A stretch of 64,000 nt of DNA from a virus. The notes beneath the pieces were generated by a model that made no database searches, was not told the DNA's origin, and was given only the letters and a program-made list of their open reading frames with translations. The first letter of the stretch is position 1; every line of letters starts with the position of its first letter. The position numbers were made by a program, and so were the translations under genes. This document shows, in pieces, positions 18,936-37,902 of the stretch. The DNA is taken from positions 29,040 to 93,039 of the IMG/VR virus record IMGVR_UViG_3300029319_008653; one strand, written 5' to 3'.

Positions 18936-19384
18936 TGACCTCTACTGGAATGGCTAATAATCAAAGACCTAAATCAGACTCTAATACATCAGCGAAGATT
19001 ATTGCTTTTTACAGAGGAAGGGTACTATTATTAAAAAATAAAGATAAAACGTATGAACTGCCTGGTGGTCATATAAAAATTGGTGAACCTACTATAGTTG
19101 GTGCTAAAAGAGAGTTCAAAGAAGAAACGGGACTCGATGTTACGAGGTTAAAATCATTAATAAATACGCCTACAAGAAAGATTTATACAGGATTTTTAGC
19201 TATTAATCGTGTTACTATTAGTAAGGAGCATATCGGCTTTATATTTGTACCATTAAATAAATTAAAGAAGTATAATTTAAATATAAAGGCTAAGAGCGAT
19301 CTTAGACTATTTTTAAATAAACGAGAAAAACTTAAAAATAATGATGAACTTTCAGACATTTTACCAGATTCTACAGGAAGCTGA
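18935..19384 (+). CDS. Nudix hydrolase
   Basis: The complete Nudix box is present: Gly45-x5-Glu51-x7-Arg59-Glu60-Phe-x-Glu63-Glu64-x-Gly66, within LPGGHIKIGEPTIVGAKREF and the following KEETGL. Nudix enzymes hydrolyse nucleoside diphosphates linked to another group (8-oxo-dGTP, NDP-sugars, ADP-ribose, capped RNA). The upstream beta strand AKIIAFYRGRVLLLKNKD is typical. Residues 1-20 are disordered; an alternative start is Met6. Its 3' end overlaps the next gene by about 40 bases. The substrate is unknown. Confidence 0.85.
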   Translation: MTSTGMANNQRPKSDSNTSAKIIAFYRGRVLLLKNKDKTYELPGGHIKIGEPTIVGAKREFKEETGLDVTRLKSLINTPTRKIYTGFLAINRVTISKEHIGFIFVPLNKLKKYNLNIKAKSDLRLFLNKREKLKNNDELSDILPDSTGS

Positions 19385-19703
19385 TCCAAAAAAAGGTACG
19401 GGAAAAAAACCTAAAGGGTCGGGTAGGAGATTATACACAGATGAAAATCCTAAAGATACTGTTAGTGTAAAGTTTAGTACAGTTTCAGATATAAGAGATA
19501 CTTTAAGTAAAACTTCTTTTAAGTCTAAATCTCATGCTAGGCAGTCACAAATTATAAATTTAATTCATCAAAGAGTAAGAGCGGCAAAAGGTAGAGTAAA
19601 AGACCCGGTTAAGAAAAAGAGACTTAATGCAGCGTATAAATATATTAGTGGTCGTAAAGAGGCTAGTAAGCGAAAAACCCAGAGAATGAAGAAAAAGAAA
19701 TGA
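19344..19703 (+). CDS. Basic DUF5872-like protein with capsid-targeting-like leader
   Basis: The 119-residue protein (start at 19341 or 19344) begins MNFQTFYQILQEADPKK, which resembles the T4 capsid-targeting leader, with LQE as a candidate prohead-protease site. The body is strongly basic: GKKPKGSGRRLYTDENPKD, then KSKSHARQSQIINLIHQRVR, and a lysine-rich end (KRKTQRMKKKK). The 'GRRLYTDENP' type of domain occurs in viruses and bacteria as DUF5872 (recalled, not searched). An internal, DNA-associated head protein is the likeliest role. It overlaps the Nudix gene upstream and the second small basic gene downstream. Confidence 0.6.
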   Translation: MNFQTFYQILQEADPKKGTGKKPKGSGRRLYTDENPKDTVSVKFSTVSDIRDTLSKTSFKSKSHARQSQIINLIHQRVRAAKGRVKDPVKKKRLNAAYKYISGRKEASKRKTQRMKKKK

Positions 19704-19903
19704 TAACATTTAGTACATATTTTTTAGAGAACTTTAAGGATAAAAAAGTTAAAGGTAAGAGCAGACCCGGTAGAGTAAAAAGAGCAGGAGCAAGCTGTAA
19801 AGGGTCTGTAAGTGAGCTAAGACGTAAAGCTAAAAAATATGGAGGCGAAAAAGGCAAGATGTATCATTGGTGCGCTAATATGAAAGGCGGTAAAAAGAAA
19901 TGA
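19700..19903 (+). CDS. Small basic virion-internal protein candidate
   Basis: The 67-residue protein begins with the hydrophobic leader MITFSTYFLENF and continues with a basic body: GKSRPGRVKRAGASCKGSV, RRKAKKYGGEKGKMYHWCAN and GGKKK. The PGRVKRAGASC...YHWCANMK pattern is shared by small basic proteins of large phages and giant viruses (from memory). The two Cys flanking a helix may hold a small fold. Adjacent basic genes on both sides and a shared leader suggest it is packaged with DNA. The leader has FLE rather than the canonical L/I-x-E. Confidence 0.6.
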   Translation: MITFSTYFLENFKDKKVKGKSRPGRVKRAGASCKGSVSELRRKAKKYGGEKGKMYHWCANMKGGKKK

Positions 19904-20523
19904 AGTATGATCAAATAGCAGATTTAATTTTAGAAAAAGTTGGTGGATATAAACCTGTTAAGTTACCCTATGCATTGGATGCTTTAGAGCCTGTTATAGA
20001 TGAAAAAATAATGAATTTTCATTATAATAAGCATTATAAAGGTTATATTAAAAAACTTAATGATGCACTATCTAATACGGAAAAAGACTTAGTAGATGTA
20101 GTAAAATCAGCTGCAAATAAAAAAGATGCAATTCGTAATAATGCAGGTGGAGCGTATAATCACCAAATATTCTGGTTCATGATGAAGCCAGGCGGGAGTA
20201 AATTTGAAGGTGAAATAAAAGAGAAAATAGAGAAGCAATTCGGTAGTTTTGATAGCTTTAAAAAAGATTTTGTTGAGCAGGCTAAGGGAGTTTTTGGCTC
20301 TGGTTGGTTATGGTTAGTTCAGAAAGGAAATAAACTTAAATTTATTCCTACACATAATCAAGACAATCCATTAATGTTTGATAAGGATGTAAAAATACTT
20401 CTTGGTGTTGATGTTTGGGAGCATTCTTATTATATTCAATATGGTCCAGATAGAGAAAAATATCTTAAGAACTTTTTAAAGATAGTTGATTGGTCTTACT
20501 GTAATCAACAATTAACTCAATAA
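19900..20523 (+). CDS. sodB: Fe/Mn superoxide dismutase with N-terminal leader
   Basis: The four metal ligands of Fe/Mn SODs are present: His41 (FHYNKHY), His88 (YNHQIFW), Asp171 and His175 (DVWEHSYY), together with GSGWLWLV. The enzyme converts superoxide to peroxide and oxygen. Before the usual SOD start (KLPYALDALEP) there are about 18 extra residues, MKYDQIADLILEKVGGYK. They are not a secretion signal but resemble the T4 capsid-targeting leader with ILE as a possible gp21 site. This and the two basic leader-bearing genes upstream, which it overlaps, suggest the SOD may travel in the capsid. Confidence 0.9.
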   Translation: MKYDQIADLILEKVGGYKPVKLPYALDALEPVIDEKIMNFHYNKHYKGYIKKLNDALSNTEKDLVDVVKSAANKKDAIRNNAGGAYNHQIFWFMMKPGGSKFEGEIKEKIEKQFGSFDSFKKDFVEQAKGVFGSGWLWLVQKGNKLKFIPTHNQDNPLMFDKDVKILLGVDVWEHSYYIQYGPDREKYLKNFLKIVDWSYCNQQLTQ

Positions 20524-21245
20524 TTAAATGAAGGTGTCGGATTTTTATAATCTGCAATTACTTCAATAATTTCATTCTTCATATAATTTACATGAATTGG
20601 TTTCCAATAAGGAGTTTCTTCACCATCATCACTGAATCGTTTTTGTTTGTAAAATATAACTAACCCGTCACATTTTTTATTAGTCATTTTTTCATATAGA
20701 TATGCGTATAAAGATAACTGCAATGCATATGTATTAAACTCACAAACAGTTAAATGAGATAATGGACCTATCATATACTCATTAAAACTACTATGAAAAT
20801 TAAAACGCTTATTAGTTTTAAAGTCTCCAAGCATAAAACTTTTCTCTTTTTCATAGACTAAGTCAGCAGTACCAGCTATATTGTCCTCAACGTTATACAT
20901 TCTTTCCTCAGCCTTAAACGTTTTATAACCACTAAAAATACTATTGGCTTCCTGCTCATATGATTTATATAGGTAATAATGCTCATCCTCTTTTTTACCT
21001 TCGACAAGAAAATCTTCCATAACTTTATGAATAGCAGTACCATAGTCACAAGCTTTATTTTTTTCTTTTTCCCATAGATCTAGTACAAAGTCGACATCTA
21101 AACCTTCTCTCTTTGCTACTCGAGTAGCATTTTCTTTTTTATCAAATTTAGGTTTATATTTTCCAAGAAGGGTAGTAACTGAAATTAATTCTCTACCGTT
21201 TTCAGTATTAACATATGTATGGGTACCTTCGTTAAAATAAATCAT
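20517..21245 (-). CDS. PD-(D/E)XK nuclease (RecB/Cas4-like)
   Basis: The 242-residue protein contains the RecB-type nuclease motifs: GTAIHKVMEDFL, IAGTADLVYEKEKSFMLGDF followed by KTNK (the D-x(n)-D-x-K core), and the helix YALQLSLYAYLYEK with the conserved Gln-x-x-x-Tyr. The N-terminus (YFNEGTHTYVNTENG, ISVTTLL) is common in phage homologues. Such enzymes are DNA exonucleases or recombination and repair nucleases. It converges with and overlaps sodB by 7 bases, and has TATAAT 6 nt before its ATG. Confidence 0.8.
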   Translation of the reverse strand: MIYFNEGTHTYVNTENGRELISVTTLLGKYKPKFDKKENATRVAKREGLDVDFVLDLWEKEKNKACDYGTAIHKVMEDFLVEGKKEDEHYYLYKSYEQEANSIFSGYKTFKAEERMYNVEDNIAGTADLVYEKEKSFMLGDFKTNKRFNFHSSFNEYMIGPLSHLTVCEFNTYALQLSLYAYLYEKMTNKKCDGLVIFYKQKRFSDDGEETPYWKPIHVNYMKNEIIEVIADYKNPTPSFNY

Positions 21246-21251
21246 ATATAT

Positions 21252-21257
21252 ATTATA
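21252..21257 (-). promoter_or_regulatory. TATAAT element before the nuclease gene
   Basis: Minus-strand TATAAT at 21257-21252 is followed by ATATAT and then the ATG (21245). Spacing is 6 nt. Confidence 0.45.
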
Positions 21258-21297
21258 ACGTATAGAGTTGAAATATCAAATAGATATATTAAATTAT

Positions 21298-22167
21298 ATG
21301 TATATGAGAATTGCAATTAGTGGGTCAGGATGCCAAGGTAAAACTACTCTTATAAAGGATTTTTTAGCTCAATGGAAAAATTATAAACCTGAGAGTGAAA
21401 CTTATAGAGAGATTATTGAAAAAGAAGACCTTCCTCATAGTAAGTTAGCTACTAAAGACTCGCAATGGAAAATTCTTAATCATATGATTGACGAATTACT
21501 TACATGGAAAAAAGACTCTCACCGTGTAATGGATCGATGTCCGATCGATAATCTCGTTTATTCTTTATGGTGTTATGAAAAAGGTGTAGGTAATATTGAT
21601 AAAGAATTTATTGATAAATGTATACCTTTAGTTTGTGAAAGTATGAAAAATCTAGATATTATTTTCTTTATACCAATAACAAAAGCTGCACCAGTAGAGT
21701 TAGTTAATGATAATATGAGAGAAGTTGATCCTATCTATATAAAAGAAATAGATAATATTTTTAAGATGATAGGCGCTCAACATATTGAAAATAATGGAAG
21801 AAATCCATTCTTTCCTAAAGATGATGCACCCGGTTGGATTGAAGTATTTGGTGATAGACAAACACGTATAGCTATGATTAAACAATACCTTGATGATGAC
21901 GGTGATCTTATTGGAGGTACAGAAGAAAGTTTAAATGAGCTTATTAATCCGCATGACGGGCAACCTCTTGGTGGGTTAGACCCCGAGTCTCAAGAAGGTA
22001 GATTGGCTATGGAAAAACTTCTTAAACTACAGAAGCAAGCTCAAGTTGAAGAAAAGGAGTTAGCTGCTCAAAGACAAATGATTAAAGATACTCTAGGCGA
22101 GGATATCGATGATGAAAAACTTCGCGGGGTATATGATAGTAAAATTAATAAAGATAGATTTAATTAA
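21298..22167 (+). CDS. P-loop kinase/ATPase of the NadR-thymidylate kinase type with long tail
   Basis: The Walker A motif GSGCQGKTT follows directly after the first strand (MRIAIS), and DRCPIDNLVYSLWCYEKG is the lid/base region seen in AAA_28-type nucleotide or nucleoside kinases. Residues from about 190 on are an added acidic segment and a helical tail (EKELAAQRQMIKDTLGED). A TTG at 21268 is in frame, but the ATG at 21298 (or 21304) immediately precedes the P-loop strand and is more likely. A smaller homologue lies next to the dpdA-like gene (49945). The phosphorylated substrate is unknown. Confidence 0.65.
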   Translation: MYMRIAISGSGCQGKTTLIKDFLAQWKNYKPESETYREIIEKEDLPHSKLATKDSQWKILNHMIDELLTWKKDSHRVMDRCPIDNLVYSLWCYEKGVGNIDKEFIDKCIPLVCESMKNLDIIFFIPITKAAPVELVNDNMREVDPIYIKEIDNIFKMIGAQHIENNGRNPFFPKDDAPGWIEVFGDRQTRIAMIKQYLDDDGDLIGGTEESLNELINPHDGQPLGGLDPESQEGRLAMEKLLKLQKQAQVEEKELAAQRQMIKDTLGEDIDDEKLRGVYDSKINKDRFN

Positions 22168-22169
22168 TA

Positions 22170-22457
22170 TTATAATGCTTTAAGCATAATATGATAATCT
22201 ACACCATTAATAGTTATAGGTAAACCATTTGTTGCAGCACCGGCAGTTTGCGTTGGTACAGTTTCAGGAAACAATACACCAGATATAGTCGCTACATTAG
22301 TAATAGCACTTTTAAATGTTGTATTATCCGTACCAATAACAAAGTTTTTAAAATCTAACTTACTTGTCGCATTAGGAGATTGAACAATAATAAAATCTCC
22401 GTTAACTATTTGTGATACTACGGGTAATTGATCTATACTTACTTCTGAACTTGCCAT
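22170..22457 (-). CDS. Small putative virion protein
   Basis: The 95-residue protein begins MASSEVSIDQLPVVSQIVNG and continues DFIIVQSPNATSKLDFKNFV, a pattern I recall from short tail- or fibre-associated proteins of marine myoviruses. It is beta-rich, without Cys or membrane segment, and ends in ITINGVDYHIMLKAL. A TATTTATA (minus-strand TATAAATA) lies 6 nt before the ATG, consistent with late expression. The 3' end converges on the kinase gene with a 2-base gap. Confidence 0.55.
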   Translation of the reverse strand: MASSEVSIDQLPVVSQIVNGDFIIVQSPNATSKLDFKNFVIGTDNTTFKSAITNVATISGVLFPETVPTQTAGAATNGLPITINGVDYHIMLKAL

Positions 22458-22463
22458 ATAAAT

Positions 22464-22471
22464 TATTTATA
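22464..22471 (-). promoter_or_regulatory. Late promoter TATAAATA (minus)
   Basis: Exact TATAAATA on the minus strand, 6 nt from the ATG at 22457. Confidence 0.55.
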
Positions 22472-22485
22472 CTAAATTATATATA

Positions 22486-23271
22486 ATGTCAAAGATTGGT
22501 ATAGGAATAATAACATGTAATCGAACAGATTTTTTACAAACTTGTATCGATAGTATAAACAAAGATTGGTATGATGAGTTTGTTATAGTTAATGACGGTG
22601 AAATGCCCGTTAAAAATAATAGTTTTAACATTATAAATAACCCTAAAAATTTAGGTGTTTGTAAATCAAAAAATATAGCACTAAAATATTTGCTAGATAA
22701 TAGCTGCGATCATATCTTTCTAGTAGAAGATGATATGAAGTTTACCGGGAATATATTTAAAGAATATATAGAAGCGAGTAAAACTACAGGTATACAGCAT
22801 TTTATGTTTGGTTATCACGGACCTGCAAATAAAGGTGGTATAAGTGGAGGTAAACCTCAACCAAGAAAAATTATTGATTATGGTAAAATAAAAATAGCAC
22901 TAAACCAACACTGCGTGGGAGCAGTTTGCTACTATACTCGAAAATCTTTAGAGGATACTGGAATTTTTGACGAACAGTTTGATAAAAATAATTTTGAACA
23001 TGTAGAGCATTCATATAGATTAGCTAAGGACGGTTATAGTACACCTTATTGGTGGTGGGCAGATATAGCTAATAGTTTAGACTTTGTACAAGAGCAAGCC
23101 TGTAGTGAAGATAACTCAGCTATCAGAAGAGGAGATGATTGGCAACAGAGTATAATTGATAGTGCGTATATCTTTAAATCAAAACACGGGGTAATGCCTG
23201 CTTGGAATGACTGCGTACCAGATACTTCAGTTAAAGATGTTGTTGAAATATTAAGGAAGTTTAAGAAATGA
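22486..23271 (+). CDS. Family-2-like glycosyltransferase
   Basis: GT2 features are clear: IGIGIITCNRTDFLQTCIDS at the N-terminus, EFVIVNDGE, and HIFLVEDDMKF near residue 80 with the acidic metal motif. A later HVEHSYRLAKDGYSTPYWWW supplies the acceptor side. The 261-residue protein is soluble. It is the first of about ten successive glycan genes on the plus strand (22.5-30.5 kb), most overlapping by 4 bases, so they form one translational unit. Donor unknown. Confidence 0.75.
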   Translation: MSKIGIGIITCNRTDFLQTCIDSINKDWYDEFVIVNDGEMPVKNNSFNIINNPKNLGVCKSKNIALKYLLDNSCDHIFLVEDDMKFTGNIFKEYIEASKTTGIQHFMFGYHGPANKGGISGGKPQPRKIIDYGKIKIALNQHCVGAVCYYTRKSLEDTGIFDEQFDKNNFEHVEHSYRLAKDGYSTPYWWWADIANSLDFVQEQACSEDNSAIRRGDDWQQSIIDSAYIFKSKHGVMPAWNDCVPDTSVKDVVEILRKFKK

Positions 23272-24002
23272 AAATATCTCTATTATGTCCCAGTCGAGAA
23301 AGACTTAATAAATTTTTAACTTTTACTAGTAGTATTTTTTGTACAGCTAACAATATTAAAAATATAGAGATAGTTTTAGGTGTAGATGAAGATGATCCTA
23401 AATTTAACGAATATAAAAGAATAGCTAAAAATCTTTCTTTTATCAAATTTACAACATTTAAGAAAGGCTTCTTCAAAAATGAAGGACTTTCCGGACTTTG
23501 GAATATTATGGCTCAAGTATGTAACGGCGATATAGTTGCAATGGTAGGTGATGATATGATCTTTCAAACTAATGACTGGGATAAAGAAATTATTGATACT
23601 TTTGAATCCAAAAAAGATCCAATATGGCTTATACACTGTAATGATGGCATGAGAGGACCTGGTAATAAATATGCGAATGTAGCTCCTATGGCTGTAAACT
23701 CATTTGTGCACCGTGCTTATATTAATGCAGTAGGTAGATATGTGCAGACAGAAGAACCAGCCATATTTCAAGATACATTCTTAGATAGACTTTTTGGTAG
23801 TTTAAATCGAAAAATTTATTTTCATAATATCATGATAAAACATCTACACTTTTCTGAGGGCGGTACGAAAGACAAAACTTCAGAAGCTTTAGAAGCTACC
23901 AGGGTAGGTATATGGGATAATGAAAACCTGTTTAAAGAAAAATTATTACCGGTAATGCAAAAAGAAATTAAAATTCTTAAAGACCTATATAAAATTAAAT
24001 GA
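23268..24002 (+). CDS. GT-A-like glycosyltransferase
   Basis: The protein starts MKISLLCPSRERLNKFLTF, typical for phage GT2 relatives ('CPSRxR'), has GVDEDDPKF and MVGDDMIFQTNDWD as the acidic donor/metal motif, and ends in a helical tail. Length 244 residues. It has a Shine-Dalgarno (AAGGAAG) and a 4-base overlap with the preceding gene. A His-rich segment (IMIKHLHFSEGG) near residue 190 may complete the metal site. Specificity is unknown. Confidence 0.7.
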   Translation: MKISLLCPSRERLNKFLTFTSSIFCTANNIKNIEIVLGVDEDDPKFNEYKRIAKNLSFIKFTTFKKGFFKNEGLSGLWNIMAQVCNGDIVAMVGDDMIFQTNDWDKEIIDTFESKKDPIWLIHCNDGMRGPGNKYANVAPMAVNSFVHRAYINAVGRYVQTEEPAIFQDTFLDRLFGSLNRKIYFHNIMIKHLHFSEGGTKDKTSEALEATRVGIWDNENLFKEKLLPVMQKEIKILKDLYKIK

Positions 24003-24652
24003 TAATATATACACATTATAGCAATTCGCACGAAGATTTATATAAAAATTATTTTAAAGATTCTTTACGTAAAATATATACTAAAGATGAAGTTAAAATA
24101 AGAGCTGCAAAGCATCGTCAAACAACTAAAGATGGTACCTTTATGGAGCAAGGTTGGTTAGATAGTATGGACTTTAAGCTACAAGTTATCTTAAAAGCTA
24201 TAGAAGAAAACTGGAACGACTATTTTATTTTTGCAGATACTGATATTGTTTTTTACAAGGAGTTTATAGATGACCTATTAATAGAAATAAAAGGATTTGA
24301 TATTGCTTGTCAAAATGATTGTGAATCTTTATGTGCTGGGTTTTTTATTGCCAGGGGAAACGAAAGAGTAAAAAATTTATTTCTTAAAATAAGAGAAAAT
24401 TATCGTAATATGGTAAACGACCAAGTTGCTTTAAATAGGTTTAAAAATATTATAAACTATAAACTATTAGATAAAGAAGAATATTATACTATTGGAAACT
24501 TTTTTGATAATGTTAACGGTACGCATATATGGGACGGGGTAACTAAAATAAAACCTCCTCGGGATATGAGAATACATCATGCTAATTATGTAGAAGGTGT
24601 AGGTCAAAAGAAAAAAATTATAGAAATGATTAGATCAGAATATAACAAATGA
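23999..24652 (+). CDS. Nucleotide-diphospho-sugar transferase-like protein
   Basis: The 217-residue protein holds a DxD motif in DYFIFADTDIVFYKEF (about residues 78-82), then CQNDCESLCAGFFIARGN, which corresponds to the FNAG-type block of small GT-A enzymes (GT77/GT8-like), and a C-terminal RIHHANYVEGVGQKKK. ATGA overlap with both neighbours. No membrane anchor. Its role in the locus is transfer of one sugar; the linkage cannot be inferred. Confidence 0.65.
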   Translation: MIIYTHYSNSHEDLYKNYFKDSLRKIYTKDEVKIRAAKHRQTTKDGTFMEQGWLDSMDFKLQVILKAIEENWNDYFIFADTDIVFYKEFIDDLLIEIKGFDIACQNDCESLCAGFFIARGNERVKNLFLKIRENYRNMVNDQVALNRFKNIINYKLLDKEEYYTIGNFFDNVNGTHIWDGVTKIKPPRDMRIHHANYVEGVGQKKKIIEMIRSEYNK

Positions 24653-25488
24653 TAAGTTTTTTCGAAGATATATTTCAATATGAAAGTTTTCCTACAGAGT
24701 ATGAATGTTATAAAGTACTTTCTGATATAGATAACTATATAGCAGTACCATGGACTCAAATTTTAAATAGTCATTGGTTTAACTTTCCAGGTAATAAAGG
24801 TAGAGATTATTTTTTAAGAGAAATTAGTAAGTATAAAGTAAAAACGGAAAATAATTTTACTATATGTCAGCATGATAGTTTTAAACAACTAGAACTATAT
24901 TTTAAACATCTTAATATAACTAAAGTATTTTGTACGCTTCATAGTAAACAAGATAAAATAGATGGTGTAGATCTTATACCTATTTCATTTGCTTTTAATA
25001 AAGAATTTAGTAATGATAAAAAGAAAGATATTTTAGTATCATTTGTAGGCGCATCTACTACACACCCTCTTCGTGAAACTGTAAAAAAATCATTTACCGG
25101 TCCTAATTTTATATATAGAGATAGCTACCATATTGATAGTAGAGATCAAGATAAAGAAGAACTAGAACTGCAGTATAAGAATATTATGGAAAGATCAATT
25201 TTTACCTTATGTCCGAGAGGCTCATCACCTTCATCTGTAAGATTTTGGGAAAGTTTATCTGCAGGTACTATTCCAGTATTAATAAGCGACGACTGGGCCT
25301 TACCTGAATGGGATTGGGACAATACAATAGTAAAAATACCTGAGAAAGATATTGCTAATCTCACAACTATGAAATTAAATGTTTTATTAGAGCCGTTAAA
25401 TCATAAAAAAATGAAAGAAAAATGTCTCGAGGCATATAATAAATTTAAAAAACAAAACTTTAGAGAGTACGTTTTACAAAGCTTGTAA
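24649..25488 (+). CDS. Exostosin-family (GT47-like) glycosyltransferase
   Basis: The C-terminal half carries the exostosin core: RSIFTLCPRGSSPSSVRFWE, SLSAGTIPVLISDDWALPEW. In GT47 enzymes this part binds the UDP-sugar (the RG..S..RFWE..GCIPVI pattern). The N-terminal half (VPWTQILNSHWFNFPGNKGRD, FTICQHDS) is the usual acceptor-side Rossmann-like domain, here short (279 residues total). A second exostosin-like gene lies at 29677. Eukaryotic exostosins polymerise heparan; bacterial and phage versions are of unknown specificity. Confidence 0.8.
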   Translation: MISFFEDIFQYESFPTEYECYKVLSDIDNYIAVPWTQILNSHWFNFPGNKGRDYFLREISKYKVKTENNFTICQHDSFKQLELYFKHLNITKVFCTLHSKQDKIDGVDLIPISFAFNKEFSNDKKKDILVSFVGASTTHPLRETVKKSFTGPNFIYRDSYHIDSRDQDKEELELQYKNIMERSIFTLCPRGSSPSSVRFWESLSAGTIPVLISDDWALPEWDWDNTIVKIPEKDIANLTTMKLNVLLEPLNHKKMKEKCLEAYNKFKKQNFREYVLQSL

Positions 25489-25515
25489 TTAAATTTTATT
25501 GCAGTAAGTAATATT

Positions 25516-26340
25516 ATGAGTACGCATGTTGACGGTAATAACTTTATATCCCATTATCTTAAAAATAATAAACCATTTTGTGCTGGTAAAATTGGAGGCA
25601 CGGAATTAAAATTATTTTTTGCTAATCTTAATCGTTTAGATATACCTATTGATTTAAAATTAGAAGCTGAAAATGTATCTGGTCTAGTGCCTACTAATCA
25701 AGATACTCTTAAGTGGTTTAGTGATGTATTTGGAAAAGCAGTTAATGATAGTGACTTACTTGCAAAGTGGAGTCGTATCATACCTGCTTTAGAGGCAAAA
25801 ATGATAGATGAATCCGGAGCATATTCAACACCTCTACAGCATCTTGAGCCTTACTTTCATGATGATCCATGGAGTAATTATTTAGAAGATAAAAAAGTTT
25901 TAGTCTTTTCGCCTTTTGCTAAGAGTATAGAAAAAAATTATAAAAATCTTGATAAAATTTGGAACGGTAAAATTAAAGCTAACTTTAAATTGAAAGCTAT
26001 AACATACCCTACATCTATCACTATTACAGAAGATACTTCATATAATAACTATAAAGAAATTTACGATAAATATATAGAAATTATACAAACAGAAGATTTT
26101 GACGTTGGTATATTTGGTACAGGTTATACTGGGCTACTATTTGCAGCTGAAAGTAAAAGACAAGGTAAAGCAGGTATTCATATGGGAGGGTCGACTCAAT
26201 GCTTATTTGGTGTCTTAGGTAATAGATGGAAAGCAAATAAAGATTTTGATAATCTTATTAACGAATATTGGGTACCCCCGACACCTGATGAGACTCCCAA
26301 AGGTGTTAGTAAAGTAGAAGATGCTTGTTACTGGGGATAA
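25516..26340 (+). CDS. GT-D-like (DUF1792-type) protein, putative glycosyltransferase
   Basis: The 274-residue protein has NKPFCAGKIGGTELKLF at the N-terminus, resembling the RFGDGE-type donor motif of GT-D glycosyltransferases, and near the C-terminus DVGIFGTGYTGLLFAAE and GIHMGGSTQCLFGVLGNRW, like the FGPTA...G...IGGG...G block of that family. The assignment is by pattern and medium-strength. The gene begins after a 27-base gap, so it may have its own signal, and ends in a TAATG overlap with the fucosyltransferase-like gene. Confidence 0.6.
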   Translation: MSTHVDGNNFISHYLKNNKPFCAGKIGGTELKLFFANLNRLDIPIDLKLEAENVSGLVPTNQDTLKWFSDVFGKAVNDSDLLAKWSRIIPALEAKMIDESGAYSTPLQHLEPYFHDDPWSNYLEDKKVLVFSPFAKSIEKNYKNLDKIWNGKIKANFKLKAITYPTSITITEDTSYNNYKEIYDKYIEIIQTEDFDVGIFGTGYTGLLFAAESKRQGKAGIHMGGSTQCLFGVLGNRWKANKDFDNLINEYWVPPTPDETPKGVSKVEDACYWG

Positions 26341-27110
26341 TGAGAGTAATAGTAAAATATGACCCATATAACAGATTGGGTAACCGAATGTTTCAATATG
26401 CTTTCGGGTACTTATTATCTAAAAAATATAACTGTCCTTTACTATGCAATGACGATCTACCAAATTTTGGAATTAAATCTGAGAGATATACATATATAGA
26501 TCCAAATGTATTTGTTAGCAGAAGTGTAGGTAATCAATATTTTGATTTTACTAAACTTGATAACTTTGATGGTGATGTAGTGCTAGATGGTCATTTACAA
26601 AAGATAGATTATTATAAAGATCATAAGGAAGAATTAAGAAAAGTTTTTGGTATAAAGAATTTAGAGATGAAAAACTCTGAAAAACTTATCTTACATATAA
26701 GAGAAACTGATTATAAGGTTTTGGATATATTTTTAGGTTATGATTTTTATAAAAAGTTTATCGAAAGTACAGGCTATACAGATATAGCTATTGTAACTGA
26801 TAATCCTAAAGGAGAAACTATTCAGCGTTTATTAAGTGAAGGTTGTACTCTTAATACTGATGGTGTTGAATCACCGTTTTTACATCATGGGGATCGCAGA
26901 GCAATAGATGACTTTTTAACTTTACTATATAGCGAAAATATTGCAATATCTCAATCATCCTTTGCATGGTGGGGCGCATTTCTTGGATATCATAATAAAG
27001 TATTTTTTCCTTTTAGTACTACATCCAAGCAATGCTGGGCTTTGAAACCTGAAAGAGAAGATGTGGATTTGTATATTGATGAACCCAGTTCTATAAAGTT
27101 TGTATTATGA
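26340..27110 (+). CDS. GT11-family alpha-1,2-fucosyltransferase-like
   Basis: GT11 motifs are present in order: YNRLGNRMFQYAFGYLLSKK (the GNQMFQYA block), LILHIRETDYKV (the HxRxxD-type motif that binds GDP-fucose), IAIVTDNP and IAISQSSFAWWGAFLGYHNK (the S.SSFSWWGA block). The enzyme would transfer L-fucose or a related 6-deoxyhexose from GDP. A GDP-sugar dehydratase/reductase lies 1.6 kb downstream (28706). I start it at the ATG 26340 in the TAATG overlap rather than the upstream ATG at 26325, which only adds MLLGI. Confidence 0.8.
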   Translation: MRVIVKYDPYNRLGNRMFQYAFGYLLSKKYNCPLLCNDDLPNFGIKSERYTYIDPNVFVSRSVGNQYFDFTKLDNFDGDVVLDGHLQKIDYYKDHKEELRKVFGIKNLEMKNSEKLILHIRETDYKVLDIFLGYDFYKKFIESTGYTDIAIVTDNPKGETIQRLLSEGCTLNTDGVESPFLHHGDRRAIDDFLTLLYSENIAISQSSFAWWGAFLGYHNKVFFPFSTTSKQCWALKPEREDVDLYIDEPSSIKFVL

Positions 27111-27925
27111 AATATTTTTTAGCTCATTTTGATACTAAGTTTCCAGATTATGTAAATTATTGCGTAAAGCAAATTCATAAGCATGATCCAAAAAATGATG
27201 TATATATCTGTGGAGATTATAAGCCAAGTTTTATAGAAGAGGATTATACTTTTATACATAGATCAGATTTAGACTTGCCAGATTTTTCTTATCTTAAAGA
27301 CGCTAGCGATCCATTATGGCATACTTCTTTATTAAGAGTATTTGCTATTAACAACTTTATGCGGAAATATAATTATGAAGGAATAATACATTTTGATAAC
27401 GATGTAATGATTTTTGGTAATTTTGAAAATATAAAAAATAATTTTAAAAAAGAAAATTATATAACACCACATAAATCTACCGAATATGCATTTGGATTTT
27501 CTTATATAAACAACAAGGAAAAATTTAATGAGCTATGCGCAAAGATTTTAGAATTAATATCTAAAGGAGAAAATAAAGTTAAAGATTTAACGGGAGATGA
27601 AGCTCATGAGATGAGATTATTAGGATACTGTGCAGATGGATTAATTGTTCCGCTTCCCGTCCATCCAAGTTTAGGCAGTATTGATAATTGTATTTTCGAC
27701 CCCTCATCTTGGGGTCAATATGTAGCCGGTACACCTGCAGGTCATAGTAGAGGTTTTATAGATGAAAAACAATTAGTAGGGAGTATCTTATCTAAGGAGG
27801 AGGAAAAGCCTACTCTATTATATAAAAAGTCTAGCGATACATATCATATAAAATTTAAAGACAGAATCTATCAAGTTTTTAATTTACATATACATAAGAA
27901 AAATTTAAAAGTTTTTAGTAAATGA
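27107..27925 (+). CDS. GT-A-like glycosyltransferase
   Basis: The protein (272 residues) has LRVFAINNFMRKYNYEGIIH followed by FDNDVMIFGNFENI, where DND is the DxD motif, and a C-terminal region ending in helices and basic residues. The start YFLAHFDTKFPDYVNYCVKQ is shared with phage and bacterial GT-A proteins of unknown donor. ATGA overlaps on both sides keep it in the glycan operon. No membrane segment. Confidence 0.65.
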   Translation: MKYFLAHFDTKFPDYVNYCVKQIHKHDPKNDVYICGDYKPSFIEEDYTFIHRSDLDLPDFSYLKDASDPLWHTSLLRVFAINNFMRKYNYEGIIHFDNDVMIFGNFENIKNNFKKENYITPHKSTEYAFGFSYINNKEKFNELCAKILELISKGENKVKDLTGDEAHEMRLLGYCADGLIVPLPVHPSLGSIDNCIFDPSSWGQYVAGTPAGHSRGFIDEKQLVGSILSKEEEKPTLLYKKSSDTYHIKFKDRIYQVFNLHIHKKNLKVFSK

Positions 27926-28683
27926 AGAAAATAGTTATATATCAAGAGTGGGGAGGATTAGGGGATAATCTAGCTCATACCACTATACCAAAGCTTTGCG
28001 AGAAATACGGTTATGAATGTTTTTTAAGCAAACAAAATAATTTTAGAAATAAAGATATTAAGGATTTACTTTTTAAAGACATACCAACAATTGATGAAGT
28101 TAATACAAGTTGGGTAGATAACTATACTGTAACGCAGAGTAAAGAATGGAATCATATTAGAAGTATACAGCTAGGGTATGGGTTTAAAGAAGCACCATAC
28201 TCATATCCATTTATTAATTATGAACCTAAATTTATTAAAGAATTAAAAGATATAACACTTATGGATTTATCTGGTTTATACTATTTTAAATATTTTAGCC
28301 ATATCTTTACTGAACAAAATTTAACTAGATTATATAATAAGATATTGTCATTGAATAATAATTTTGGTAAAGTAAAGACTGTACAGAAACCTAATATATC
28401 ATGTAATGAAGTTATAATATCTGAAGAAAAATATTCAATTAATAATTTATTCGATTATTGTGATGCAATATATTCATGTAAAAATTTTATTACGGTAGAT
28501 TCTGGTCAATCAAATTTAGCTAGCTGTATAAAAAATCAGTTTTTAGAAAATAAAAAGCTTAATATTTATACAATAGGTTTACAAAAAAATTTACCACCTA
28601 ATAATTATAATTCATATTTTTATCTTAATACAAACCATATAGCTTTAGATACAGGCCGAATGTATAAGGCTCTTGATTATTAA
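27922..28683 (+). CDS. GT-B-like (GT9/heptosyltransferase-type) protein
   Basis: The 253-residue protein begins IVIYQEWGGLGDNLAHTTIP, which mirrors the GxGD(x)L motif at the start of GT9 ADP-heptose:LPS transferases, and ends with NFITVDSGQSNLASCIKN, the counterpart of their TxDTGxxHLA acceptor/donor loop. It is shorter than typical heptosyltransferases (about 350). A heptosyltransferase-like role would fit the HldA/HldC-like genes 2 kb downstream, but the link is inference. Followed by a 22-base gap with a promoter-like element. Confidence 0.6.
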   Translation: MKKIVIYQEWGGLGDNLAHTTIPKLCEKYGYECFLSKQNNFRNKDIKDLLFKDIPTIDEVNTSWVDNYTVTQSKEWNHIRSIQLGYGFKEAPYSYPFINYEPKFIKELKDITLMDLSGLYYFKYFSHIFTEQNLTRLYNKILSLNNNFGKVKTVQKPNISCNEVIISEEKYSINNLFDYCDAIYSCKNFITVDSGQSNLASCIKNQFLENKKLNIYTIGLQKNLPPNNYNSYFYLNTNHIALDTGRMYKALDY

Positions 28684-28692
28684 CTTATATAG

Positions 28693-28698
28693 TATAAA
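28693..28698 (+). promoter_or_regulatory. TATAAA element before the GDP-sugar dehydratase gene
   Basis: Within ATATAGTATAAAATAAGTT, TATAAA ends 7 nt before the ATG at 28706, in one of the few gaps of the glycan operon. Confidence 0.4.
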
Positions 28699-28705
28699 AT
28701 AAGTT

Positions 28706-29680
28706 ATGAGCAAATATTTAATTACTGGTATAACTGGGTTTGCAGGTCCCCATCTAGCTAACCTACTTCTTGAGGAGGGCCATGAAGTTCATGGCATAGT
28801 ACGAACACCCAATGGTAGAGAGCTTGATTTAGTAGATATAATTAGCGTAGAGAATTTAGAAAAAATAAAGTTTCATCACATCGATCTTAAACATTATTAT
28901 GGAGTAAAAAAATTATTTGATAATTATGAATTTGATGGGGTATTTCATTTAGCAGCTCAATCACACCCACCAACGAGTTTTAAAGATCCAGTTTTAACTT
29001 GGGAAGAAAATGTCAACGGTACAGTAAACTTAATAACAGCTCTCGAAGGCAGTAAGACAAGATTTATGTTCTGCTCTACTAGTGAAGTATACGGAGACAC
29101 TTGTAAAGATGTAGGATTATTAAAAGTAGATACACCATTAATACCTAGTAACCCCTATGGTACTTCTAAAGCTGCAATGGATATGTATGTAAGAGAGCGC
29201 AGTGCTAATGGTTATTTAGATGGTTTCGTAACTAGAGCATTTAGTCATACTGGTCCTCGTAGAGGTAAGATTTTTAGTATTAGCTCAGATGCATATCAGA
29301 TTGCTAATATGGTTTTAGGAAGACAAGAATTAGTTTTAAAAATAGGAAATCTACAAACTGAAAGAGTAGTTATAGATGTAAGAGACTGTGTAAACGCTTA
29401 TTATAAATTAATGTTAAATCCTGAAACTAAAGGAATGGCATTTAATGTTTGCGGAAGCGATGTTCATAAAATGCAGCACTACACAGATCTACTAATTGAA
29501 AAATCTGGTTTAAAAGGAGTAGAACAAAAAATTTATGAACCTTACTATCGACCTATTGATATACAGGTTCAGATAGGAGATTCAAGTGAACTAACTAATA
29601 TGACAGGATGGAAGCCTGAAATATCTCTAGAACAAACAATGGGAGATTTATTATCATATTGGGTAGATAAACTCAAATGA
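28706..29680 (+). CDS. GDP-mannose 4,6-dehydratase/GDP-6-deoxy-sugar reductase family
   Basis: The extended SDR has GITGFAGPHLANLLLEEGHE (glycine motif), FHLAAQSHPPTSFKDP, CSTSEVYG with the catalytic Ser/Thr-Glu, and SNPYGTSKAAMD with the YxxxK pair. The 'AAQSH..SF..P' and 'STSEVYG' strings are typical of GDP-mannose dehydratase (GMD) and its reductase RMD. GMD makes GDP-4-keto-6-deoxymannose, the precursor of GDP-fucose and GDP-rhamnose. A GT11 enzyme is encoded nearby. GMD versus RMD cannot be settled by eye; the length of 324 residues lies between the two. Confidence 0.8.
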   Translation: MSKYLITGITGFAGPHLANLLLEEGHEVHGIVRTPNGRELDLVDIISVENLEKIKFHHIDLKHYYGVKKLFDNYEFDGVFHLAAQSHPPTSFKDPVLTWEENVNGTVNLITALEGSKTRFMFCSTSEVYGDTCKDVGLLKVDTPLIPSNPYGTSKAAMDMYVRERSANGYLDGFVTRAFSHTGPRRGKIFSISSDAYQIANMVLGRQELVLKIGNLQTERVVIDVRDCVNAYYKLMLNPETKGMAFNVCGSDVHKMQHYTDLLIEKSGLKGVEQKIYEPYYRPIDIQVQIGDSSELTNMTGWKPEISLEQTMGDLLSYWVDKLK

Positions 29681-30525
29681 TATGCGGTGAACAATTTCAG
29701 TTATTATCGGAAGTTAGCTTTCATGGAGAGTTAACTGATAATATAATTATAGAACAGAATAATTCTATACCTCAAAATCTTTTAAAGATAAGCGATACTG
29801 ATCCTTTAGAAATTAAAAAATATAATTGTATTTTTATATATACTCATTTTGCAGAAGAATTTTTTAATAAATTTTTTAATCATTTAAATGAGGGCGTTAC
29901 AATTATAACACATAATTCAGATGCTGGTATAGATAGTAAATTTTTACCTTATCTTAATTCAAGTAAAATAAAAAAATGGTACTGCCAAAATAGACTTATT
30001 GATCATCGTAAATTATTTTCCATACCTATAGGCATAGCTAACAGTCAATGGGGGCATGGAGATTTCGATACTATTGCTAAAATAAGAGATGAAAAAAATT
30101 ATAAAAATAATTTAGTTTTTAAAAATTTTAGTATCGGTACAAATGTAGTTGAAAGAAAAGAATGTGACCATTTTACTTCAATGAATAATATAAAAATGAG
30201 CCCTAATACTCCTAATATAGATTATTGGCGGAATATATCTAAAAGTGCATTTACTATTTCTCCTCCCGGAAATGGAGTTGATTGTCATAGAATATGGGAG
30301 TGTTTATATTTACGATCGATACCTATAGTAAAATATCATAAAGCTTTAAATCAATTTAATCATCTACCTATATACTTTGTTAAAAATTGGGATGAAGTAA
30401 CAATACCAAATTTAAGAGATAAATTATCAGATAACTTAAAAAAGATGCACGAAAAATTTATTAAAGATTTTAAGAATATAAAAGAATTAGATATTAATTA
30501 TTGGAAATCTTTATTGCTTTCATAA
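29677..30525 (+). CDS. Exostosin-like glycosyltransferase
   Basis: The 282-residue protein has AFTISPPGNGVDCHRIWECL followed by YLRSIPIVKYH, the phage-type exostosin core in which RxWE...G..PIV contacts the nucleotide-sugar. The upstream part (WYCQNRLIDHRKLFSIPIGI, ANSQWGHG) matches 'PIGIxNxxW' found in bacterial exostosin-like proteins. It overlaps the upstream SDR by 4 bases and its 3' end overlaps the convergent kinase gene by 32 bases. Specificity unknown. Confidence 0.7.
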   Translation: MICGEQFQLLSEVSFHGELTDNIIIEQNNSIPQNLLKISDTDPLEIKKYNCIFIYTHFAEEFFNKFFNHLNEGVTIITHNSDAGIDSKFLPYLNSSKIKKWYCQNRLIDHRKLFSIPIGIANSQWGHGDFDTIAKIRDEKNYKNNLVFKNFSIGTNVVERKECDHFTSMNNIKMSPNTPNIDYWRNISKSAFTISPPGNGVDCHRIWECLYLRSIPIVKYHKALNQFNHLPIYFVKNWDEVTIPNLRDKLSDNLKKMHEKFIKDFKNIKELDINYWKSLLLS

Positions 30526-32305: not shown

Positions 32306-32311
32306 ATATAT

Positions 32312-32339: not shown

Positions 32340-32355
32340 GGAACTATAGTATAAT
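32340..32355 (+). promoter_or_regulatory. GGAACT-N4-TATAAT promoter element
   Basis: GGAACT at 32340-32345, ATAG, TATAAT at 32350-32355, then 7 nt to the ATG at 32363. Back-to-back with the minus-strand promoter at 32312. Confidence 0.6.
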
Positions 32356-32362
32356 ATAGAAA

Positions 32363-32764: not shown

Positions 32765-32765
32765 T
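32760..32765 (+). promoter_or_regulatory. TATAAT element before the DUF366 gene
   Basis: TATAAT straddles the end of the HAD gene and lies 6 nt before the ATG at 32772. Confidence 0.4.
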
Positions 32766-32771
32766 TATATT

Positions 32772-33721: not shown

Positions 33722-33726
33722 TTTAT

Positions 33727-34528: not shown

Positions 34529-34869
34529 ATATAGTAGAAAAAATAGAAACAAGTCTTCAGAATTATCTATTAAGAGATGTTATTTTCTTTATAGATGGAG
34601 GCAAAACTTTAAAAAAAGGAAAGCTAATTTTATTTAAATTTAAAGAGTTTCATTATGTTTTTACATTAAAAAATGAGAAAGAAGAGCTTAAGGTATATGA
34701 AATACCATATCCTTATAATACAGAATTTAAGGACGATCATACACGTTTTTCATATAGCTTAGAACATTTTACATTACCAGAAAGTGAATTATATTATCGT
34801 ACTAAGCTTCTGGATAAAAGTAACTGCGATAAATTATTTGATCAGACACTTGTTTTATCTGCTATATAG
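34525..34869 (+). CDS. Conserved small phage protein, unknown function
   Basis: The 114-residue protein is rich in beta-type segments (KKGKLILFKFKEFHYVFTLK, KVYEIPYPYN) and charged residues, with a single Cys and no membrane helix. It begins in an ATGA overlap with the WYL_2-like gene and ends 14 bases before the helicase gene, within whose promoter region it stops. It may be a small barrel protein like its neighbour, but I do not recognise it. Confidence 0.55.
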   Translation: MNIVEKIETSLQNYLLRDVIFFIDGGKTLKKGKLILFKFKEFHYVFTLKNEKEELKVYEIPYPYNTEFKDDHTRFSYSLEHFTLPESELYYRTKLLDKSNCDKLFDQTLVLSAI

Positions 34870-34871
34870 TA

Positions 34872-34877
34872 TATAAT
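34872..34877 (+). promoter_or_regulatory. TATAAT element before the helicase gene
   Basis: TATAGTATATAATCTATAT immediately precedes the ATG at 34884; the hexamer is at 34872-34877 with a 6-nt spacer. Confidence 0.45.
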
Positions 34878-34883
34878 CTATAT

Positions 34884-36521
34884 ATGTTAGGTCGCTTTCT
34901 ATCTAAATTTCCTGAGGGATATACTCCGAGCAAACAGCAAGTAAAGCTAATAAAGAGTATTGAAGAAGCATTTGATAGCGGTCATAAATTTGTTATATGT
35001 TCTGCTCCTACTGGGTCAGGTAAGAGTTTTATTTCTAAAACTTTAGCTAATGTATCTAATGAATCATCGGAAAGCTTTAAAGAGTTAGTTAGTTCTTATG
35101 CTGCTTTTAAAATAGATCAGACCGGTACCTTTTTAAATGAGCAGGAATGTATTGATGAATCGCCTTCAGGTACATTTGCTTTAACTATAACTAAGACATT
35201 ACAAGATCAATATAAAGATCTATTTGATGATACAATATTATTAAAAGGCAAAAGTAACTATCAAAGTACTATTGACCCTAATATGGATGTTGAATTAGAG
35301 TCTCTTGTAATGCCTAAGAAAGTTTTAGATGATCATAGAATGCGTCATAAATGTAACTATCATAATGATAGAAGAGATGCTTTAATTAAAAAATTTGCTG
35401 CATTAAATTATAAAATGTTTTTATCTTTACCTAACCATGTAAAGTATAAAGACTATATAGTTTGCGACGAGGCATCAGAATTAGAAGACGAAATTATAAA
35501 ACAGTTTTCTCTATCTATTGATGTAGTAAGATTAGGTAGAATAGGAGTAAAAGCTTATTCTCTAAAATCTACTAAACCTAAAACTGTTCTTAAATGGATA
35601 GGAGATTTATTATTAAATGTATCGGAAAGGATAAGCTATATACAGGAAAGAGCTAAGTTAGGTCTTTCTGAAAAAGATACTAATAGATTGCATTATTTAA
35701 AAAATATTCATCGTACTTTGTGTTTAATAGATGAGACTTGGCAAAAATGCGAATACGTTGTTCAAGTAGAGAATAAAGATAATATTAAAGTTACGCCTCT
35801 AAAAGTTGATAGCTTAACGAAATATATATTTGAGTATGCTGATAAAATTTTGTTAATGTCTGCTACTGTTATTGATCATGTTAATCTTGCTAAGACTTTA
35901 GGTATTGAAAGATATAAGTACGTTGAATCTGCTAGTACCTTTAATCCTGATAAAGCTCCTATTTATATATCGCAGACTAATAAATTAAACCATGCTAATC
36001 TACCTAAAGCATTACCTTCTATAATTGAACAGATTAGACAGATATGTGAAACTCATAAAGAGGAAAAAGGTATAATACATACGCATACAAATTATATTAC
36101 TAATTATATTCAAGGTAAAGTTAGAGATAGGAGTTTTGAGAGTTGCAGATTTTTATTTAGAGATGAACTCTCTCGTAATGAAGATATATTAAAACATCAC
36201 GAAGAAAGCGAAGAACCAACTATATTAGTAAGCCCGTCTCTTGGATTAGGTATAGATCTTAAAGATGATCTAGCTAGGTTTCAAATTATAGTAAAGGCAT
36301 CTTATTTGCCTTTAGGTGATAATAGAATTAAAAAAATGTTTGAAATAGATAAACAATGGTATACTAATAAAATGTTATCTAACTTTATACAGCAATGCGG
36401 TAGAGGTATTAGAAGTAAAGATGATCATTGTGTAACTTATGTTTTAGATGCTACCATATTTCATGCTATAATGCGTAATAAAAATAGACTACCAAAGTAC
36501 TTTATTGAAAGATTTGTATAA
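34884..36521 (+). CDS. DinG/Rad3-type superfamily 2 helicase
   Basis: The 545-residue protein has Walker A APTGSGKSF (about residues 41-49), a DEAH-box variant VCDEASELED, motif III-like LLMSATV, a late motif IV region (GIIHTHTNYI) and motif VI QQCGRGIRSKDDHCVTYVLD, as in DinG/XPD helicases. The Fe-S domain of XPD may be degenerate: only HKCNYH near residue 150 offers a cysteine pattern. Such helicases unwind DNA 5'-3' in repair or R-loop removal. It is followed by a late promoter and the virion-type genes. Confidence 0.8.
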   Translation: MLGRFLSKFPEGYTPSKQQVKLIKSIEEAFDSGHKFVICSAPTGSGKSFISKTLANVSNESSESFKELVSSYAAFKIDQTGTFLNEQECIDESPSGTFALTITKTLQDQYKDLFDDTILLKGKSNYQSTIDPNMDVELESLVMPKKVLDDHRMRHKCNYHNDRRDALIKKFAALNYKMFLSLPNHVKYKDYIVCDEASELEDEIIKQFSLSIDVVRLGRIGVKAYSLKSTKPKTVLKWIGDLLLNVSERISYIQERAKLGLSEKDTNRLHYLKNIHRTLCLIDETWQKCEYVVQVENKDNIKVTPLKVDSLTKYIFEYADKILLMSATVIDHVNLAKTLGIERYKYVESASTFNPDKAPIYISQTNKLNHANLPKALPSIIEQIRQICETHKEEKGIIHTHTNYITNYIQGKVRDRSFESCRFLFRDELSRNEDILKHHEESEEPTILVSPSLGLGIDLKDDLARFQIIVKASYLPLGDNRIKKMFEIDKQWYTNKMLSNFIQQCGRGIRSKDDHCVTYVLDATIFHAIMRNKNRLPKYFIERFV

Positions 36522-36524
36522 ATA
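36517..36524 (+). promoter_or_regulatory. Late promoter TATAAATA
   Basis: Exact octamer overlapping the helicase stop codon, 5 nt before the ATG at 36530. Confidence 0.6.
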
Positions 36525-36529
36525 ATATT

Positions 36530-37135
36530 ATGCAAACGTTTGAGGAATTCTATAATCAAAAAATGCTCGAGGAGCAACTACAAAAAATACTTGAAGGGTA
36601 TATGCTCGAAGGGCAATTACTTGAAGAAAATATTTTTAAATCAACTCTGGCATCATTAAAGTCTATTCCCGATACTGCTTCATCTGCAGCCCAGGCAGTA
36701 GCAAATTTTCCAGGAGAGGTCGCAGCTTATATAGGCGCTATAGGAGATTATACTTTGAAACTCGGAATAGCTGGTGTAGGTGGCGCTGTTGCTGCTCAAG
36801 CTTTAGGAGCCTTACTTCAGCATGTTGCTGATAAAATGGATGCAGCAAGGGAAGATGAAGCCTACAAGAAAAGAAAACAAAGGGAAGTTATGGTTGAAAC
36901 TGAATTTGAAAAAGCTTTAGCAGTAGGTGAAAAATTATCTGAAGAACAACAAATGAAATTATTAGAAGATATTTCAAAAAAATGGGCTGAAAAATATAAA
37001 ATTCCAGAACCCAAACTTTTTGTAAAAGCTATGAGAAAAATTGGTGATGCTTTAAGTTCGAAATTAGGTACTATATTAGCAGCAGTATTAGCATTTATAG
37101 CAGCTAAAATGTTAATACCCTTTCCAACATTTTAA
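36530..37135 (+). CDS. Membrane-active virion protein candidate with capsid-targeting-like leader
   Basis: The 201-residue protein starts MQTFEEFYNQKMLEEQ, close in pattern to the T4 internal-protein leader (MKTYQEFIAEA), and is followed by several L/I-x-E sites (KILEGY, LLEEN) where the prohead protease could cut. The rest has a Gly/Ala-rich hydrophobic segment (about 68-103) and a C-terminal hydrophobic helix (LGTILAAVLAFIAAKMLIPF), separated by a charged helical region. It could be a packaged pore- or membrane-interacting protein released on infection. Function inferred only from these features and from late expression. Confidence 0.5.
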   Translation: MQTFEEFYNQKMLEEQLQKILEGYMLEGQLLEENIFKSTLASLKSIPDTASSAAQAVANFPGEVAAYIGAIGDYTLKLGIAGVGGAVAAQALGALLQHVADKMDAAREDEAYKKRKQREVMVETEFEKALAVGEKLSEEQQMKLLEDISKKWAEKYKIPEPKLFVKAMRKIGDALSSKLGTILAAVLAFIAAKMLIPFPTF

Positions 37136-37148
37136 GTTTAATAATATT

Positions 37149-37682
37149 ATGGAACACTTTGACAATTATTGTAACGAACAACTAAAAATGCTTGAAGAAG
37201 GTAAAATAGGTAGGGCGTTATCAGTAGGGAGACTCGCAGCAGGTTTAATGTTAGGTCAACCTGGTTCTGCAGATGCTGCAATCTATAATAATAATCCAGG
37301 TAATATAAGAACTTCACCAACTCAATGGAATGGTGAGGTAACTAAACCCGGAGAAGCATTTGAAAGATTTGAATCTATGCCTTATGGTATTAGAGCTTCA
37401 GCTAAAATTTTAAGAACATATGGTAAAAAGTATGGTATAGATACTATTAATAAAATTATTGATAGATATGCACCGCCTGAAGATAATAATCCTAATAATG
37501 CAAATTATGCAAGACATGTATCTAATGGTTCGGGATTTGGAGTAGATGAAAAAATAGATCTAAATGACCCACAAGTTCTTATGAAATTAATGAGACCGAT
37601 TTTTGAATTTGAAAATGGTAGAAAAGAAGCTGCTAAGATTTCTGACGCTGATATTGAAAAAGGCGTTAAGATGGCTTTTTAG
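37149..37682 (+). CDS. Virion muramidase/transglycosylase-like protein (P5-type) with leader
   Basis: After an N-terminal MEHFDNYCNEQLKMLEEG leader (LEE as a possible cleavage site) and a short hydrophobic stretch, residues 45-170 match the family typed by NNPGNIR: YNNNPGNIRTSPTQWNGE, FERFESMPYGIRASAKILRT and IIDRYAPPEDNNPNNANY. Members are annotated as structural protein P5 or lytic transglycosylase-like and help phages locally open peptidoglycan. The leader suggests packaging inside the head for delivery with the DNA. It is 13 bases from the leader-bearing gene before it and overlaps a convergent gene by 17 bases. Confidence 0.75.
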   Translation: MEHFDNYCNEQLKMLEEGKIGRALSVGRLAAGLMLGQPGSADAAIYNNNPGNIRTSPTQWNGEVTKPGEAFERFESMPYGIRASAKILRTYGKKYGIDTINKIIDRYAPPEDNNPNNANYARHVSNGSGFGVDEKIDLNDPQVLMKLMRPIFEFENGRKEAAKISDADIEKGVKMAF

Positions 37683-37902
37683 TTTTCTTCTTTTTCTTTT
37701 TAGGTAACTCCATATATAATCTTCGCTGCTTACCACCTGGTTGCCCTTTAAATCCAGAAATAGATGCTGTACTATGAGGTTCATTTAATTGAGGATTAAT
37801 CGTTCCATATTTACCCCGAGGTCTTACCTTAACCGGTCTTTTAGTATCAGTCGGTGCTCTAAAATCTTCTAATATTTTTTTAACTGTGGAGTTGAAATCC
37901 AT
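37666..37902 (-). CDS. Small basic protein with leader-like N-terminus
   Basis: The 78-residue protein begins MDFNSTVKKILEDFRAPTDT, again a short amphipathic helix with ILE as possible prohead-protease site, followed by a basic, Gly/Pro/Ser-rich body (PVKVRPRGKYGT, GQPGGKQRRLY) and a lysine run at the end (PKKKKKKTKKPS). This is the composition expected for a DNA-binding internal head protein. A longer antisense frame at 37587-37784 is a shadow. The function is inferred. Confidence 0.5.
   Translation of the reverse strand: MDFNSTVKKILEDFRAPTDTKRPVKVRPRGKYGTINPQLNEPHSTASISGFKGQPGGKQRRLYMELPKKKKKKTKKPS

Follow-up and report, generated by a model that had tools for sequence, protein, structure and literature searches.

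Leaders resembling T4 capsid-targeting sequences on unrelated proteins of a distant T4-like virus

In a 64,000-nucleotide stretch of the virus record IMGVR_UViG_3300029319_008653 (C1:29040-93039 of the 93,039-base record, hereafter the window), six proteins with unrelated bodies begin with a short amphipathic leader that mostly ends in an L/I-x-E site. We consider it very likely that these leaders are T4-type capsid-targeting sequences (CTS) cut by a gp21-type prohead protease, and that the proteins behind them are packed in the head and enter the next host with the genome. Across the whole record of this aquatic T4-like phage, a dozen or more unrelated proteins are most likely address-tagged in this way for head packaging and delivery. 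In T4, such a leader directs its protein into the prohead core before being removed by gp21 after L/I-x-E (PMC9026906, PMC3012670), and both this cut-site rule and a CTS length of 10–19 residues are established (PMC9026906). An initial annotation of the window had proposed such a cargo system loading the phage head, and this proposal is supported here by the encoded machinery, the exchange of leaders between genes, the absence of the sites in contigs where neither gp21 nor gp23 was detected, and the virion data of a relative.

All six annotated leaders, at 19344, 19700, 19900, 36530, 37149 and 37666, are present in the sequence as described. They are 10–17 residues long, within the range of the T4 propeptides, and five of the six end in L/I-x-E, the protein at 19700 carrying F at P3. 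The sites are, in order, ILQE/A, YFLE/N, LILE/K, MLEE/Q, MLEE/G and KILE/D, where a slash marks the predicted cut. Three of the bodies are small and basic, as had been noted: a 119-aa protein referred to here as module A (19344–19703, plus strand; leader MNFQTFYQILQE at 19344–19379, followed by ADPKKGTGKKPKGS; alternative start one codon earlier at 19341, MMNFQ), a 67-aa Cys-containing protein (19700–19903, plus strand; leader MITFSTYFLE at 19700–19729) whose start overlaps the stop of the preceding gene and for which no relatives were found in named phages, and a 78-aa protein (37666–37902, minus strand; leader MDFNSTVKKILE at 37867–37902). These basic bodies matched nothing in Pfam or PHROG, giving no sign of homology to the bodies of T4 IPI, IPII and IPIII; the predicted structure of the module A protein is helical, confident only from about residue 41, and without a match in the PDB. 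The superoxide dismutase (SOD) assignment at 19900–20523 (plus strand; leader MKYDQIADLILE at 19900–19935) is borne out by both Fe/Mn SOD domains (PF02777, E=4e-35, and PF00081) and by four of four metal ligands in an alignment to 1jr9. Similarly, the muramidase-like body at 37149–37682 (plus strand; leader MEHFDNYCNEQLKMLEE at 37149–37199) is a muramidase/transglycosylase of the T7 gp16 / Enc34 endolysin type, matching phrog_873 (E=9e-43) and PDB entries 9vvp and 7q47. The 201-aa protein at 36530–37135 (plus strand; leader MQTFEEFYNQKMLEE at 36530–36574, with additional LxE sites up to residue 33), annotated as membrane-active, contains hydrophobic segments; it has no family match, and its body was found only in the window.

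The machinery that would act on such leaders is encoded by the same phage: a minus-strand head module of the T4 type comprises the portal, protease, scaffold and major capsid protein. The gp21-type prohead core protease (54290–54958; Peptidase S77, PF03420, E=1e-33, phrog_207) itself starts with MGLNLIVE/TP, a possible self-cleavage site. The gp22-type scaffold (53271–54122), recognized from a weak PF25623 match and its location between gp21 and gp23, starts with MKNISDILRE/ATDG, i.e., with the leader type found on the cargo genes. The gp23 major capsid protein (51665–53185; PF07068, E=1e-87) carries an LNE/AG site at residue 61 and is only ~34% identical to gp23 of cultured cyanophages, which places this virus in a distant T4-like lineage. 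The protease, the similarly tagged scaffold and the gp23 site all support the annotated resemblance to T4 internal proteins cut by gp21.

Next, we evaluated how far the leaders stand out from other N-termini. Their annotated amphipathic character was confirmed by the helical hydrophobic moment over residues 2–13, which was 0.40 for the six leaders and 0.47 for nine further leader genes. The 114 remaining genes gave 0.29, a difference that reached p=0.03 with just the six leaders and p=0.0006 with all 15 (Mann-Whitney). A leader matrix trained solely on leaders from other contigs scored >8 bits for 5 of 131 N-termini of this phage, compared to none of 340 from contigs lacking gp21 and 0.7% of internal Met windows. 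Two of the top three scores belonged to gp22 and a 603-aa protein, neither of them in the training set. A genome-wide search with a leader signature (F/Y at residue 3–4 and [LIVMFY]xE ending at residue 8–20) retrieved 20 of 129 genes of the phage versus 5.2% of internal windows (p=1e-5), although this signature was picked after the leaders had been seen and is independent only in its later use on the cyanophage S-CREM2.

Leaders also behave as units that are independent of the bodies they head. Between relatives, bodies that are 72–96% identical retain the junction and differ in the leader: in G001, a 74-kb relative compared through reciprocal-best matches, the module A body is 93% identical with leader MKWNFDILVESILLE instead of MNFQTFYQILQE, the muramidase body 84% identical with MQTFEEYYNEQMLNE instead of MEHFDNYCNEQLKMLEE, the body at 19700 96% identical with MINFQTYFE, and the SOD body 72% identical, its leader diverging among relatives. 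At the 36530 locus, the DNA from a helicase tail through the leader aligns with contig L086. There it leads into the muramidase, whereas in the window it precedes the unrelated 201-aa protein, and the muramidase comes next with a diverged second leader. This shared leader DNA in front of unrelated bodies amounts to a natural leader capture.

Conservation of the site is specific to the joint between leader and body. The module A body, whose conserved part starts at DPKxGTGKKPKGS, is kept in more than 70 contigs with varying leaders and LxE at the joint. Among leader-group contigs, [LIVMFYA]xE occurs ≤4 residues upstream of module A in 41 of 47 distinct contexts, including 600–1,600-aa polyproteins, against a background of 14% (p=7e-29, uncorrected for relatedness). 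Other modules display the same pattern: a DRCKRIADRKY module is preceded by ILQE, IVQE, ILSE or MMLE, and a GGAxGHMAHPFD module by LNE, ISE or IQE. Conversely, the site was found in none of 15 module A copies in contigs without detected gp21 or gp23, several of which begin directly with MADPKVG. The protease gene itself was detected in 12 of 15 leader-type contigs ≥57 kb versus 0 of 6 controls (p=0.0015). The contrast recurs in named phages: a module of the type encoded at C1:20316 has LTE or LEE before it in C48C1 and HTVC008M, both T4-like, while the copy in podophage HTVC202P starts with MAKYKGRNVKLNKP. A different kind of leader was observed in a set of uncultured tailed viruses (L133, L124, L139, L146, L154, L156 and L157) for which neither gp21 nor gp23 was detected and in which 51 of ~155 genes with unrelated bodies start with M-x-W-x-x-[IL]-L-K (e.g., MSWKNILK or MNWFDLLK; loci L133:324-698, 4026-4472 and 10336-10686), compared to 1 of 2,005 genes elsewhere; this leader has no LxE, yet it also heads a module A-type protein.

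Evidence from virions comes from the T4-like cyanophage S-CREM2, for which a mass spectrometry proteome has been published (PMC10665884). With the signature applied exactly as fixed on the present genome, 7 of the 26 proteins detected in virions whose function is non-structural or unknown gave a match, compared to 8 of the 157 proteins not detected there (Fisher p=0.0016), and the enrichment was similar for proteins of at least 75 aa (7/26 versus 4/95, p=0.0018). Among the matching virion proteins are a SAM hydrolase (MKDFDSFLEE/), a kinase (MKRFDAFLTE/) and a cytidylyltransferase (MKNFSSFLTE/A). In another cyanophage, S-SZBM1, the sole enzyme reported in virions starts with MRFRQFIIE/A. A virion-associated Cas9-like protein of S-CREM2 (ORF12; L197, record positions 7704–10313) has a leader-like PLRFASFMAE/A ending at residue 25, a late position that possibly reflects a misannotated start. 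The authors of the S-CREM2 study considered true cargo possible and left co-purification as an alternative (PMC10665884). No mention of capsid targeting in marine phages was found in the literature searched, which leaves most subscription journals outside.

For the muramidase, one could instead propose an ordinary secreted or signal-anchored endolysin, whose leader and hydrophobic stretch together form an export signal. Its nearest solved single-domain relative is indeed the endolysin 7q47, and in all six relatives the stretch directly behind the leader (residues 18–43; GKIGRALSVGRLAAGLMLGQPGSADA, 37200–37277, plus strand) resembles a signal peptide with small residues at its end, AxA in four of them; a structure model of the protein was too poor for use. 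However, residues 1–17, being acidic and aromatic, do not resemble a signal n-region, the leader ends in LEE, LDE, IEE or LNE and is interchangeable with that of an unrelated gene, and the domain has further relatives among proteins that are ejected from inside the virion. We thus consider an ordinary endolysin unlikely; the position of the signal-peptide-like segment right behind a removable leader rather suggests that the muramidase may be exported after ejection.

It is also improbable that the tagged proteins are extra scaffold parts of the prohead core, which, like T4 gp67 and gp68, would be cut, serve assembly, and be largely lost without delivery. While gp22 bears the same leader type, and the core proteins of T4 are cut by gp21 and for the most part exit the head (PMC9026906), the bodies here include a SOD with intact active-site residues, a wall-enzyme domain and variable accessory modules, and leader-bearing enzymes remain in mature S-CREM2 virions. 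Finally, short amphipathic N-termini with LxE could be frequent by chance in Glu-rich phage proteins, as a suitably placed motif occurs in ~30% of random 24-residue windows, but joint-specific conservation, leader capture and the association with S-CREM2 virions make this highly improbable.

Besides this background frequency of LxE, several observations weigh against head-packaged cargo. Packaging in the present phage is predicted from its genes, and the virion evidence comes from relatives. In S-CREM2, 19 of the 26 virion proteins compared have no leader, many of them probably being tail or head parts, and the eight undetected proteins noted above fit the signature. The control contigs without leaders were chosen by their N-termini, so that only the gp21 comparison is independent of this choice, and since contigs are fragments, failure to see gp21 in the controls does not prove its absence. 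Leaders are also no more alike within a genome than between genomes (permutation p=0.44); a genome-specific leader code, suggested by the appearance of contigs L100, L094 and L119, is by the same permutation unsupported overall.

Several related contigs encode cargo modules strung together in 600–1,600-aa open reading frames with gp21-type sites in between. A 1,614-aa polyprotein (L102) combines a nucleotidyltransferase-like start, SOD, a module A-type domain, a zeta-like kinase and a deoxyribonucleotidase, another (L130) includes DUF192 and plastocyanin domains, and the cultured phages HTVC008M and Melnitz encode similar polyproteins. Across many module boundaries, the motif is enriched where homology begins, suggesting that these polyproteins may be processed at the joints; no peptidase domain was found in the five polyproteins scanned, all from relatives. 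A scan for SOD yielded 80 loci, mainly in contigs with a 510-aa protein in which an internal SOD domain is preceded by ITE; such proteins were observed in virus contigs L004–L083 with the domain between ITE and LSE sites (e.g., L018:10001-10618). As a more tentative proposal, which we hold to be possible but rather doubtful, T4-type phages may use the prohead protease for polyprotein processing, one leader targeting a string of modules that is then cut inside the head, and the leader of the muramidase may mask its signal peptide until gp21 cuts, so that export occurs only after ejection and the producing cell is not lysed.

For the present phage, we infer core binding, cleavage, retention, ejection and a cargo role along the following lines. 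The tagged proteins would be made late in infection together with the head proteins, and the amphipathic leader, resembling the N-terminus of the gp22 scaffold, would put each of them into the prohead core. Cleavage by gp21 after [L/I/F]-x-E would remove the leader, and the mature bodies would remain in the head with the DNA, including the Lys/Arg-rich small proteins, the SOD, the muramidase, the membrane-type protein and, encoded beyond the window, further proteins such as a cytidylyltransferase fusion. This cargo would enter the next host along with the genome, with possible roles in DNA condensation (basic modules), oxidative protection (SOD) and wall passage (muramidase). In related phages, the same modules are additionally linked into polyproteins that have gp21-type sites between the units.

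The distribution of a late-promoter-like box, ATAAATA, fits late expression alongside head genes. The box lies 3–25 nt (mostly exactly 5 nt) upstream of the start codon of 23 of 131 genes versus 0.8 expected; TATAAATA is unenriched overall, being enriched only at gene starts. Boxed genes include gp21, the portal and those that open leader operons at 7939, 18935 (continuing to 19341–19900), 36530 (box at 36518–36524, plus strand, 5 nt before the start), C1:15819 and C1:20316, with similar boxes at 18923 and at 7927, the latter 5 nt before the start of a zinc protease family gene. The exact 5-nt spacing recurs at many starts in the window and in L002 and L003 (e.g., 36518, 54964, 59148 and 7927), and would give nearly leaderless late transcripts.

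The tagged system is larger than first seen: about eight additional genes of the 93-kb record bear such a leader, tagged genes also lie beyond the window, and relatives encode polyprotein forms. Between C1:15819 and 21826, outside the window, leaders read MDKFTQFANKVLME, MRNFLNTLYNTGLIKE, MKTFKNYILNE, MKFNDEVLSLLE, MKKFKTYFEE, MREFDTVLE and MREFDKLAEQYLTE. The 603-aa protein, starting MKTFKNYILNE/GGAAGHMAHPFD, looks like a fusion in which an internal VMAE/D site precedes the cytidylyltransferase domain. Within the window, a putative ATP-dependent zinc protease family protein (PF05618; 7939–8355, plus strand) is a weaker candidate with the possible leader MISFKIFYE/. Elsewhere in the window, positions 22486–30525 hold a long series of glycosyltransferase- and sugar-metabolism-like genes, as judged by their translations.

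Proteomics of marine T4-like phages repeatedly detects enzymes in virions, with authors undecided between cargo and contamination. A leader combined with a protease site provides a sequence rule predicting which proteins get loaded, and permits existing mass spectrometry data to be searched again for cut N-termini. It also points to a large set of unannotated proteins that may be active in the host ahead of all phage gene expression.

Among known systems, the closest are T4 IPI, IPII, IPIII and Alt, which share the 10–17-residue amphipathic leader with an aromatic at position 3–4, the L/I-x-E cut site, small basic cargo, diverse bodies behind similar leaders, and gp21, gp22 and gp23. Unlike T4, the cargo here includes a SOD and a muramidase, many more genes are tagged with far more variable leaders, relatives have polyprotein forms, and cleavage is predicted from sequence. 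The T4-like cyanophages S-CREM2, S-SZBM1 and S-SCSM1 carry virion enzymes, listed as cytidylyltransferase, SAM hydrolase, kinase and Cas9, several with the same kind of leader (PMC10665884, PMC9146016), while the accessible text of these papers proposes no targeting sequence and names neither a SOD nor a gp16-type muramidase. The muramidase domain is common to T7 gp16, other internal virion transglycosylases and the Enc34 endolysin, but the protein here is a stand-alone single domain of 177 aa with a gp21-type leader, not a >1000-aa core or ejectosome protein with further domains. Polyvalent proteins (Iyer et al. 2017, PMC5512222) are, like the polyproteins of the relatives, multi-domain and thought to be packaged and delivered, yet they differ in domain content and are freed by embedded peptidase domains, a task that the head protease would perform here at LxE joints. 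Finally, the ejection proteins of phiKZ and SPN3US are also carried in the head and processed after x-x-E by a protease related to gp21, with propeptides that are often ~100 residues long and another motif (A-x-E or S-x-E).

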